This document shows, one piece after another, positions 1 to 5,338 of a DNA stretch of 7,891 nt. The notes beneath the pieces are model-generated. The model saw only the letters and a program-made list of their open reading frames with translations. It was not told where the DNA came from and ran no database searches. The number at the start of each line of letters is the position of its first letter. Positions within the stretch are counted from its first letter, which is position 1. Source of the DNA: Candidatus Delongbacteria bacterium (GTDB lineage: Bacteria; UBA4055); contig JAFGVM010000014.1 in NCBI GenBank assembly GCA_016937995.1, forward strand, positions 1 through 7,891, written 5' to 3'. A program made the translations under genes and the position numbers.

Positions 1-1047
1 AAGCAGTTCCGGATCAACTGTTACAAAATAAGGTACTCCGATCTCTTTATATTTCATAGATCTTATTTCCAAAGTTCCTTTTTCATCAAGAAGGGTTTTG
101 AATTCATTGTTCAGGTCAGTGTGTATCTTCTCTGATCTCATTCGAACATTCCTGTCAACTGAACTCAAAGGGAATACACAACACTTGACCGGGGCTATCT
201 GAGGAGAGAAGATCACTGTTGGTATTATTGCATTTCTGACCTGTAATTCTCTATAGCCATTAAATATTAAAGCCAATATCAATTTGTCAACATCAATATT
301 GATGCTCAGCATATGCGGTAATAATTTCTCGTTTCTTAAAGTATCTTTTATCCTGAGACTGTTAATTTCCTCTTCTGAAAAGCTTCTCTCCGAATTCTCA
401 AAGTAAAAATCAATTCTATCAGAAATAGTGAATACAGTTTCTTCACCGAAAGGAAATTTGAATTTTGTGATATAGCGGTCAAAGAAATAATCATCAGTGC
501 TTGGATGATCTACAATGTTCTGAAACTCGGTAACAATATTTTCATCATTAAATCCGATCTTGTAAAAAAAATCAATAACGAAGTCATTCCATGTTTTCAG
601 CATGGCTTCAGAAGTTGACGGGACAACAAAATAATCCATATTTATATGATTGGAATCTCCGCTATGAAATGTAAATTCGGCAGACTCAAATTGTTCAACA
701 TTAACATTTGAGATACGATTTATACCGAAAGGGATCTCCATTTTTTTTGAACGGAACAGTTCTGAAAATTTATCCAGAACGTCCGTATTTGTAATTTTAT
801 CCATACCGTATATATTGTTCAGTGAAAGGACTGTGGTGTTTTTCCAGGATGCGATTAAATTATTTTTGATCAGTTTACCCATTGCTCCCAGTTTCCAAAC
901 ATAATGATCAGGATTATCAATATCAAAAATTTTTGAGAATAACAGCTTTTCATTGATAAAATTTTCGATCTTAACGAACTGGTTTATCTGTTTAAGATGT
1001 TCTTCCTCTGAATAACTTTTTCTTTCCTTACGTTCCAAAAGAGTCAT
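1..1047 (-). CDS. Degenerate glycyl-tRNA synthetase-like protein (class II aaRS fold), C-terminus cut by window edge
   Basis: The frame is open for 349 codons from ATG 1047 to base 1 with no stop, so only the C-terminus is missing, probably about 45-50 residues. It aligns by eye with alpha2 GlyRS. Residues 51-69 (WKLGAMGKLIKNN...) match motif 1 (WDYGPLGVELKNN). Residues 105-143 match the motif 2 stretch starting IPFGI. Residues 190-215 (FKFPFG...ISDRID) match the family's KFPFGWGELxGIAxRTD. Residues 243-262 match motif 3. Residues 284-345 (IAPVKCCVFPL...KEIGVPYFVTVD) match the anticodon-binding domain. The usual long segment between motifs 1 and 2, including RPETAQGIF, is absent. The motif 2 signature FRNE has become SNVN, and the motif 3 Arg is Lys255. 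Catalytic glycylation is therefore unlikely, and the role is unknown. It lies 17 nt after recO with an AGAGGA ribosome site, so it is probably co-transcribed. The homology is firm; the loss of activity is inference. Confidence 0.85.
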   Translation of the reverse strand, partial: MTLLERKERKSYSEEEHLKQINQFVKIENFINEKLLFSKIFDIDNPDHYVWKLGAMGKLIKNNLIASWKNTTVLSLNNIYGMDKITNTDVLDKFSELFRSKKMEIPFGINRISNVNVEQFESAEFTFHSGDSNHINMDYFVVPSTSEAMLKTWNDFVIDFFYKIGFNDENIVTEFQNIVDHPSTDDYFFDRYITKFKFPFGEETVFTISDRIDFYFENSERSFSEEEINSLRIKDTLRNEKLLPHMLSINIDVDKLILALIFNGYRELQVRNAIIPTVIFSPQIAPVKCCVFPLSSVDRNVRMRSEKIHTDLNNEFKTLLDEKGTLEIRSMKYKEIGVPYFVTVDPELL

Positions 1048-1064
1048 AATTTGATCCTCTAATA

Positions 1065-1796
1065 TTATTTTGCGATCCTGTAATTAATGTGAAAATTTGT
1101 ATATGTGTTGAACATATTGATAAATTCTTTTTTTAAATATTCTTTCTGTGGTTTAATCTTGTATAACTCTTCAAATTTTATTTTTGAAATGCTCTTTAGA
1201 AATGTGGATAATTTTTCAGATATAGGAAAACTGTGGTCGAACATATTTTTACATTTTTTACAATGAAGGTTACCGTTGGTCATATCAAGGTAGTCTGTAA
1301 TATTATTGGAATTACAATTGATACAATTGTCTGTAATAGTGAATTTTATCCCCAGGCACCAAGCAAGCTGGAAATAAAAATAAATTTCAGTATTCTGAGA
1401 TGAAAATTCATGATCCATGTCAGTTGCTTCCAATAATTTTTTTACCAGAAAGAACGTCATCCTGTTCCCGTCGAGGTCATTTAAAGGTAATGTGTTCAAT
1501 ACTGCAAATATATTTAGAACTACAGTGGTCTTTTCGTAATGATCTCTAATATAAGAATAATTCTTCATCAATTCAAAATCAATAATCTTATATTTATTTT
1601 TCTCCCTGAGTATCTCAAGTTTAACATAATTCATTGGTTGTAAAATTGATCTGCCGGTATTTTTTTTTGAAGTAAAACCATGCTTGATTATAGGAATCAT
1701 TCCAAAGTCAGGTGTAAGGAAATTAATAAGTCTGCTGTTTTCCCCATGAACACTACTTTTAAGGATTATACCTTCAGTTTTGATCTCAGTAATCAT
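1065..1796 (-). CDS. recO: DNA repair protein RecO
   Basis: RecO is a cytosolic recombination mediator. With RecR it helps load RecA onto SSB-coated single-stranded DNA, and it anneals complementary strands. The 243-residue length is normal for the family. The N-terminal OB fold is visible at residues 5-75 (TEGIILKSSVHGENSRLINF, then the FGMIPIIKHG strand). A helical C-terminal domain follows and carries a four-cysteine zinc knuckle at C158, C161, C179 and C182, as in Deinococcus RecO; E. coli RecO lacks it. The ATG directly follows the TAA stop of the upstream U32 gene, and no good Shine-Dalgarno is visible (only a weak AAGAG). Expression probably depends on translational coupling. The downstream partner is the GlyRS-like gene, 17 nt away. 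Identification is secure from the conserved N-terminal pattern, size and zinc site. Confidence 0.93.
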   Translation of the reverse strand: MITEIKTEGIILKSSVHGENSRLINFLTPDFGMIPIIKHGFTSKKNTGRSILQPMNYVKLEILREKNKYKIIDFELMKNYSYIRDHYEKTTVVLNIFAVLNTLPLNDLDGNRMTFFLVKKLLEATDMDHEFSSQNTEIYFYFQLAWCLGIKFTITDNCINCNSNNITDYLDMTNGNLHCKKCKNMFDHSFPISEKLSTFLKSISKIKFEELYKIKPQKEYLKKEFINMFNTYTNFHINYRIAK

Positions 1797-3011
1797 TTAT
1801 ACTTTTGCTCTTAAAATTGAACCTGGAACAACTGATTTAAAATATTTCAGCACAACAATCTGATTTGGGTTTGTTTTATAAACATCTCTACCGATAGCAT
1901 CTTTTATTTCCCTGAAACTGACTGTCAATATTCTTTTTCCGGGTATAACGATATCTATTTCCTGCTCTGGATAGAAAGCTCCTTTTACCTCAACCACCAT
2001 TTTCTCTTTGTTAATTATCTCTTTTACCAGACCTACGATCTCATGTGTAATTTCTGCTTTACCGGTATCATATGACTGAGAAGCTTCAATACTTTTATCA
2101 AGGAATTTGAAAGTTGTATAACCTCTGTTGGAGACTTTTTTCAGTTCGATCAACGATTCAGGGTCTGTTTTATAATTTTCCGGATCATTTGAGTATCTGT
2201 CAAGAGCTTCACGGTACGTTTTAATTACAGATGACAGGTAGCTGAGTGTCTTCATTCTTCCTTCGATCTTGATAGAATTTATACCTGCTTTAACGATCTC
2301 CGGGATATATTCAATCAGGCACAGGTCCTTGGAGTTAAAAAAATATGTTCCGCGTTTAGCTTCCTCTTCAATATAAAAGCCCTCCGGGATCTGTTCTGCT
2401 GAAATATCATACTTGAATCTGCAGGTCTGGTTACACTCCCCACGGTTCGCGTCTCTGTCCTTTGTATGATAGCTCAGCATACATCTTCCTGAGTAAGCCA
2501 TACACATTGCTCCGTGAACGAACATCTCAAGTTCTATATCGGTCTTAGCACGGATCTCTCTAATTTCTTCTAAAGATAATTCTCTGGGTAAAATTATCCT
2601 CTGAACATTCAGGCTTTCAAGAAATTTGATTGTTTCATAGTTCATAGCTGAGAATTGAGTTGAAATATGAACTTCGATCTCAGGAACAACTCTTTTAACG
2701 ATGCTTAGTATTCCTAAATCGGATACGATGATAGCATCAACTTTTATTTCATAAAGGAATTTTAAGTAATCCTCAATACCGATAAGGTCTTCGTTATGAG
2801 CTATGATATTAAGAGTTACATATAATCTGACATTATTTTCTTTGCAATATTTCACAGCATTTTCAAGTTCCTCATTACTGAAATTACCTGCGAAAGCTCT
2901 CATTCCAAACGATTTTCCAGAAAGATATACTGCATCAGCTCCGAACTGGATAGCTGTTATCATTTTCTCATAGTTTCCTGCAGGAGCCAATAGTTCTACT
3001 TTATTATTCAT
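1797..3011 (-). CDS. trhP: U32 family protein, TrhP-like (prephenate-dependent tRNA hydroxylation)
   Basis: This is a 404-residue member of the former peptidase U32 family. TrhP proteins are needed for the prephenate-dependent hydroxylation of the wobble uridine that leads to (m)cmo5U/mo5U-type modifications in tRNA; peptidase activity is not established for this branch. The N-terminal TIM-barrel-like region starts ELLAPAGNYEKM and includes FGADAVYLSGK (23-33) and ISTQFSAMN (116-124). The family signature at 166-200 (HGAMCMAYSGRC...RGECNQTCRFKY) supplies cysteines C170, C177, C193 and C197, the likely iron-sulfur ligands. SKDLCLIEYIPEIVKAGINS with SIKIEGRMK (227-254) and SNRGYT follow, then a C-terminal beta-rich domain. 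The length fits TrhP (E. coli YegQ, B. subtilis YrrO). RlhA is far longer, and UbiU/UbiV are shorter and lack the tail. AAGGG precedes the ATG by a normal spacing. It is the first gene of the trhP-recO-GlyRS-like cluster. Confidence 0.9.
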   Translation of the reverse strand: MNNKVELLAPAGNYEKMITAIQFGADAVYLSGKSFGMRAFAGNFSNEELENAVKYCKENNVRLYVTLNIIAHNEDLIGIEDYLKFLYEIKVDAIIVSDLGILSIVKRVVPEIEVHISTQFSAMNYETIKFLESLNVQRIILPRELSLEEIREIRAKTDIELEMFVHGAMCMAYSGRCMLSYHTKDRDANRGECNQTCRFKYDISAEQIPEGFYIEEEAKRGTYFFNSKDLCLIEYIPEIVKAGINSIKIEGRMKTLSYLSSVIKTYREALDRYSNDPENYKTDPESLIELKKVSNRGYTTFKFLDKSIEASQSYDTGKAEITHEIVGLVKEIINKEKMVVEVKGAFYPEQEIDIVIPGKRILTVSFREIKDAIGRDVYKTNPNQIVVLKYFKSVVPGSILRAKV

Positions 3012-3122: not shown

Positions 3123-3132
3123 AAAGATTTTG

Positions 3133-3206
3133 TACACCATAGAGGATTCGAACCTCTGACCTACGGATTAGAAATCCGGTGCTCTATCCAGCTGAGCTAA
3201 TGGTGC
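3133..3206 (-). tRNA. tRNA-Arg, anticodon TCT
   Basis: It folds as a 74-nt cloverleaf. The acceptor arms are GCACCAT and ATGGTGT, closed at 1:72 by a G-U wobble. The D stem is GCTC/GAGC with a 9-nt loop containing GG. The anticodon arm is CCGGA-TTTCTAA-TCCGT with anticodon TCT at positions 34-36, which reads AGA and AGG. The variable loop is five bases (AGGTC), and the T arm is AGAGG-TTCGAAT-CCTCT. The discriminator is A73. CCA is not encoded, so a CCA-adding enzyme must complete it. The outermost anticodon-stem pair 27:43 is a C-U mismatch. It has its own promoter and terminator. Confidence 0.96.
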
Positions 3207-4501: not shown

Positions 4502-5338
4502 CTAATTTTTATCAGGACCGTAAATTTCTATCTTACATTTAGGGCAGATAGAATGTGAGAATTTTATATTAGTATGCTGAGACAGATAATCTGTGACAGG
4601 ATGCCAGTTTTCTTCTTCATCCCTTATCTGATGACAGGAAGCACAAATAGGAATAAAACCACAAGCTATTTTATCGCCGTCAGCTAATTTGATTTCCAAT
4701 TCCTTTATAAGTTCTTCTTTTTTCTCAGCGATTTGCTTTTGCTCTGTAATATCAGTAAAAAGTCCAAATGCTCCTTTATATTCACCATTTTCATCAATAA
4801 CAGGTGAACTTTTTACAAGAATTGTTCTGATCTGTTTATCGCAACGAATAATATCAAGTTCATAAACCTCGGTTGTACCTTTTTTCCTGATCGCTGTTTT
4901 ATTCAGGATAAAATTAAAATCTTCAGAAGAAGTGAATTCATTAAGACCTTTACCTACCAGTTCATTGCCTTCGCAACCAAATATCTCGTTCCCGGCCTTG
5001 TTTGCAAAAGTAAAAACTTCATTTTCATCTACAATTCCAATTCCCTCGATAAGAGATTCCACAAGAGTTCTATACCTGTGCTCGCTTTTCTTTAGTGCTT
5101 TTTCACTATCCTGAAAATCATGATTCAATTTTTTGACACATTTCCATCTGTAAATGAATATAAAATTAAGGCTTAAAGAAACAAGCATTAGTATAAATAT
5201 GGTAATATCTTTAGTATTATTTTTATGAATAGCAATACCATAAGTAATAAAGATAAAACCAATGAAAGTGAAGAGCAGAACTATTAAAATATCTACAACG
5301 AATGCTTTATTTTTATTTTTAAAAAATTGATTTAACAA
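4502..5338 (-). CDS. Membrane-anchored PAS-domain sensor protein with C-terminal cysteine-pair module, no output domain
   Basis: 278 residues. Two transmembrane helices lie at about 13-35 and 44-64, with a short outer loop and basic flanks that place both ends in the cytoplasm. A short linker (about 70-86, DSEKALKKSEHRYR) leads to one PAS domain with its PAC part (about 87-198: SLIEGIGIVDENEVFTFANKAG to FGLFTDITEQ). A charged, coiled-coil-like helix spans about 199-220. The C-terminus has the motif IPICASCHQIRDEEENW (229-245) and HSICPKCKIEIY (262-273), giving paired cysteines C232/C235 and C265/C268. Very similar tails follow PAS domains in many bacterial sensor proteins; a zinc-binding role is plausible but unproven. 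No histidine kinase, GGDEF, EAL or HTH region is present, so it must signal through a partner, or the output is the tail itself. The PAS ligand cannot be predicted. The start is TTG: the preceding in-frame codon is a stop, and the next ATG (residue 51) would delete the first membrane helix. Confidence 0.85.
   Translation of the reverse strand: MLNQFFKNKNKAFVVDILIVLLFTFIGFIFITYGIAIHKNNTKDITIFILMLVSLSLNFIFIYRWKCVKKLNHDFQDSEKALKKSEHRYRTLVESLIEGIGIVDENEVFTFANKAGNEIFGCEGNELVGKGLNEFTSSEDFNFILNKTAIRKKGTTEVYELDIIRCDKQIRTILVKSSPVIDENGEYKGAFGLFTDITEQKQIAEKKEELIKELEIKLADGDKIACGFIPICASCHQIRDEEENWHPVTDYLSQHTNIKFSHSICPKCKIEIYGPDKN

Follow-up and report, generated by a model that had tools for sequence, protein, structure and literature searches.

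An open reading frame at the very start of a Delongbacteria contig, directly downstream of recO, was originally predicted to encode a derivative of glycyl-tRNA synthetase (GlyRS) that has lost its catalytic core elements. The locus raises the question of whether this is an unusual synthetase, a decaying copy of one, or a protein that has taken the synthetase scaffold to another function.

A GlyRS-derived gene at a contig edge

The window, meaning the whole stretch of 7,891 nucleotides analysed here, begins at the first base of its contig (G000:C53), so the gene is cut. From an ATG at position 1047 the frame is open down to base 1 and, as predicted, it is intact and has a good ribosome-binding site (Table 1). 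Two relatives from the same genus (L004 and L005), whose records carry the name Candidatus Delongbacteria, encode proteins of 383 amino acids with 67% and 66% identity to the window protein, from which about 34 C-terminal residues are absent by this comparison. Contig ends fall inside the paralogue in 3 of the 11 genomes that carry it (G000, G007 and G009; window positions 1-1047, L012, L015 and L018), the gene being cut in G007 and split over two contigs in G009. A sequencing or frame error as the cause of the unusual sequence is ruled out by the presence of the same gene in ten further genomes.

Table 1. Features of the window, with residues numbered as in the window protein
Feature	Position (nt)	Strand	Remarks
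GlyRS-derived paralogue	1..1047	(-)	349 codons, 3' end cut by contig end
Anticodon-binding-domain homologue, from residue 285	1..195	(-)	cut by contig end
Motif 3 remnant, residues 244-255	283..318	(-)	Asp252 replaces Gly in all paralogues; Lys255 replaces Arg in 8/9
Glycine-pocket strand position, residues 203-213	409..441	(-)	E203 invariant in paralogues only
KFPFG, residues 197-201	445..459	(-)	scaffold retained
REFEQMExEFF position, residues 130-140	628..660	(-)	GDSNHINMDYF
Motif 2 FRNE position, N116-V117-E118-Q119	691..702	(-)	Arg to Val
PFG, residues 106-108	724..732	(-)	retained in all paralogues and GlyRS
Motif 1 remnant, residues 51-69	841..897	(-)	W51, G54, G57, W68 invariant in paralogues
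AGAGG ribosome-binding site	1056..1060	(-)	8 nt 5' of paralogue ATG; from sequence
recO	1065..1796	(-)	directly upstream of paralogue, 17 nt gap; TIGR00613 86.5 bits, over cut-off
U32-family gene	1797..3011	(-)	first of conserved trio; best NCBIfam match TrhP, below cut-off

The derivation from GlyRS was borne out. Lacking its last 34 or so residues, the window protein matches NCBIfam PRK04173 with an E-value of 3.4e-33 and 115 bits (cut-off 312) and TIGR00389 with 55 bits, below the curated cut-off of 243. GlyRS structures in the PDB were matched at 1.3e-16 with the single sequence and at 2.3e-44 with a family profile of nine members, eight full-length and the cut window protein. In hhalign this profile aligned to canonical GlyRS with an E-value of 8.1e-38 over 316 columns. 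These comparisons place the homology to alpha2 GlyRS over the core far above chance. A first structure model, made from three sequences, was discarded (pLDDT 31). A second, with a pLDDT of 58 and biased by the GlyRS rows in its alignment, is usable for the fold only; its best structural match was GlyRS (Z 20.7), with POLG2, the accessory subunit of the animal mitochondrial DNA polymerase gamma, at Z 17.9. In the comparison with both proteins that had been proposed as a check, GlyRS was thus the best match by profile and by this GlyRS-biased model.

Residues lost and kept

Nine paralogues were aligned and compared at the 63 core columns that are invariant in GlyRS. All nine have lost 28 of these, 21 are mixed and 14 are kept. 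The Arg and Glu of RPET, found in 100% of GlyRS, are absent from every paralogue, as is its Pro, and the F and N of motif 2 FRNE are likewise lost in all nine. In motif 3, GxxR has become Dxx(K/R), with Gly replaced by Asp throughout and Arg by Lys in 8 of 9. The Gly of GELxGI, in the glycine-pocket strand, is gone from all paralogues; in human-type GlyRS the glycine pocket is built by conserved glutamates (PMC4938167). The loss of catalytic elements foreseen for the window protein therefore extends to all nine aligned members in the RPET Arg and Glu and the motif 3 Gly. The motif 2 Arg is different: four paralogues still have R there and five do not, the window protein having V, and part of the loss is thus peculiar to the window sequence.

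The kept positions look structural. Motif 1 retains its W and G, KFPFG its FG and the anticodon domain its EG; PFG, the P ahead of motif 3 and AP are conserved as well. In window numbering the alignment is invariant at W51, G54, G57, W68, P106-F107-G108, F200-G201, D213, P244 and D252. The landmark coordinates of the original prediction (motif 1, PFG, KFPFG, DRID and the PHMLSI/DVDK blocks) agree with these positions, and the segment between motifs 1 and 2 is shortened as described, with 37 residues from motif 1 to PFG. FRNE and GELEGIA are indeed lost, but each had been placed slightly out of register: FRNE aligns with N116-V117-E118-Q119 and not with SNVN, and GELEGIA with residues 203-209 and not 202-208. 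Neither shift changes the conclusion, drawn from the alignment, of catalytic loss.

Four residues, R111, E203, N218 and D252, are invariant among the paralogues only, GlyRS being different or variable there, and indicate that the site has been remodelled and has constraints of its own. All paralogues lack the G, Y, D and T of GxxYxxxDExGT, which are invariant in the anticodon domain of GlyRS. Pfam HGTP_anticodon is below its cut-off in the window protein and is matched by 8 of the 9 family members.

Distribution, constraint and gene order

The Delongbacteria sample consisted of 13 genomes from one family and 7 genera. Orthologues of the paralogue were found in 11 of them, covering 6 genera. 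Genomes G003 and G006 yielded no paralogue, no recO match and no close match to the window U32 protein, which may reflect either an assembly gap or loss of the block; the single-sequence recO search overlooked the recO of G002, which adjoins the G002 paralogue. A search of 277 genomes from outside the phylum gave no second GlyRS-like match at E-values up to 1e-20. A similar paralogue should have shown there, because the single-sequence search reaches paralogues at 27-28% identity with E-values of about 1e-43. The viral contigs searched held no relative of the family, and matches in phages and plasmids were GlyRS-like at 22-28% identity and, where annotated, glycine--tRNA ligases. One 231-kb viral contig carries a 235-aa ORF (L175:2285-2992), a short synthetase-like phage protein that matches GlyRS residues 163-313 (32%) and has the motif FRKEE.

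A separate dimeric GlyRS of canonical type is present in all 13 genomes, although in G009 a contig edge leaves just an N-terminal fragment of it, and GlyQ is in none of the 13. The canonical GlyRS of the window's own genome has 468 amino acids, with RPET, FRNE and GVQR. Absence of any other GlyRS, named in the original prediction as a point in favour of an active synthetase, is thereby ruled out. The canonical GlyRS of G004 (L019:1220-2710) stands apart from those of the other Delongbacteria in both trees, which suggests its replacement by a foreign gene.

The dN/dS of the paralogue is 0.12 (G008/G010) and 0.08 (G011/G012), similar to recO and U32, with canonical GlyRS lower at about 0.04. By this measure the family is under purifying selection, and pseudogene decay is ruled out by these ratios together with the intact frames, in keeping with the original view that the gene is not decaying.

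In the window, recO directly follows the U32-family gene, and 9 of the 10 loci that could be read share the order U32-recO-paralogue; the G001 paralogue has relocated, whereas U32 and recO have remained together. The U32 gene is separated from a DEAD-box helicase gene by a tRNA-Arg (TCT; 3132-3206, minus strand), and positions 4502-5338 encode a PAS-domain protein whose C-terminus is rich in cysteine (CASCHQI, CPKC) and in which Pfam finds no kinase domain. In several genomes the paralogue faces a convergent cluster of four genes (L033:3132-7196), which encode a DUF6754 protein and three proteins without a Pfam match.

Of 80 GlyRS loci from other phyla, no fewer than 12 have recO immediately 5' of ordinary glyS on the same strand, and all nine neighbours tested against NCBIfam were RecO. 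The position of the paralogue is therefore that of glyS elsewhere, and its linkage to recO is most simply read as the old glyS slot, not as evidence for DNA repair. This weakens the adjacency as functional evidence. The paralogues form a single clade with 100/100 support, but its position on the GlyRS tree could not be placed, the stem being too long. AU tests rejected neither union with the canonical Delongbacteria GlyRS (p 0.099) nor union with the recO-linked GlyRS group (p 0.30), and sub-group profile scores lean weakly towards the latter. Descent from a recO-linked glyS is probable and, since the tree cannot place the paralogue, it rests on gene order and this lean in similarity.

Function and comparison with known systems

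The paralogue is probably a phylum-specific, non-catalytic binding protein derived from GlyRS, its loss of catalysis being inferred from sequence. A glyS in the old recO-glyS slot would have given rise to it, with the separate GlyRS doing the charging. Having lost the residues for ATP and glycine and the insert between the motifs, it would no longer make glycyl-adenylate. It would retain the class II scaffold and the motif 1 positions, probably as a dimer, and is likely to act by binding protein or RNA, on the pattern of HisZ or POLG2. The acidity of the family (pI 5.0-5.5) and the loss of GlyRS-invariant positions in the anticodon domain make a protein partner slightly likelier than free nucleic acid.

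The same two features count against the possibility, tentative in our view, that the paralogue is a tRNA-binding factor working through its anticodon-domain homologue, where it might chaperone tRNA, regulate tRNA-Gly or pair with the real GlyRS in a heterodimer, perhaps together with the neighbouring U32 (TrhP-like) tRNA hydroxylase. In its favour, the domain has been retained, as have the positions of motif 1, which is the dimer motif of class II synthetases, and the first gene of the trio has a tRNA-modifying enzyme as its best match. That gene is under the TrhP cut-off, however, and the insert and RPET are gone from the paralogue. That the protein is still an active ligase of an unusual kind, acting on glycine or some other substrate through alternative residues as other synthetase-derived ligases do, is highly improbable. 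The motif 2 Arg in four of nine paralogues and the one paralogue with a motif 3 Arg do count against inactivity, motif 3 has Arg or Lys in all, and several of the new invariants are within former active-site motifs. An active site would nevertheless require conservation of the residues that hold ATP and glycine, which is not seen among the paralogues, and the Asp in place of the motif 3 Gly is universal.

A role in DNA replication or repair with RecO, raised in the original prediction, fared poorly. As a POLG2-like factor, the paralogue would either serve a DNA polymerase as accessory subunit or work alongside RecO in repair. This is unlikely, even with the tight gene order and with a family profile that also reaches POLG2, a known non-catalytic GlyRS relative (E 2e-13). 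The order can be inherited, given recO before ordinary glyS elsewhere, and the G001 paralogue has left the recO locus. PolA, the indirect indicator of a POLG2-type partner, is of ordinary size (900-918 aa where complete), and the region between the motifs has no room for an insert like the POLG2 dimerisation domain. The profile of canonical GlyRS reaches POLG2 at 126 bits and that of the paralogues at 53 (155 to GlyRS), so the likeness to POLG2 is one of analogy. The original comparison thus holds for the kind of protein, a non-catalytic GlyRS relative, but not for kinship. It is conceivable, if doubtful, that the paralogue is a bacterial counterpart of POLG2 in a wider sense: a phylum-wide dead GlyRS serving as a dedicated subunit of a repair, replication or tRNA-modification machine, which arose independently of the animal protein when the recO-linked glyS decayed, its charging function having passed to another GlyRS.

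Non-catalytic synthetase paralogues with new jobs are already known in POLG2 and HisZ. No bacterial non-catalytic GlyRS family was found in the open-access papers searched, and none is named in the parts consulted of a review of synthetase duplication (PMC9437257). A dead GlyRS that is phylum-wide and strongly constrained would be an independent parallel to both known cases. The family is also an annotation hazard, such proteins being easily called a second glycine--tRNA ligase.

The closest comparison is with dimeric bacterial GlyRS (alpha2, PRK04173/TIGR00389). Homology to it extends through the catalytic core and the anticodon domain, and the paralogue sits after recO as glyS does in other phyla. 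The paralogue differs in lacking RPET, the glycine pocket and the motif 3 Gly, in the deletion of the insert, and in scoring far under the curated cut-offs. POLG2, which is homologous to class II synthetases (PMC4419789), is non-catalytic with a GlyRS-like fold, but it is found in animals only and is nearer to GlyRS than to the paralogue family, which has no sign of its insert and no special PolA. Yeast GlyRS2 and the synthetase-like amino acid:carrier-protein ligases are also among the synthetase duplicates in the duplication review (PMC9437257). These retain catalysis. From the same review, HisZ is a bacterial, non-catalytic paralogue of HisRS that serves as a binding and regulatory subunit of HisG. 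Like HisZ, the protein described here would be a bacterial synthetase paralogue without catalysis, as judged from its residues, although HisZ is derived from HisRS and its partner is known.
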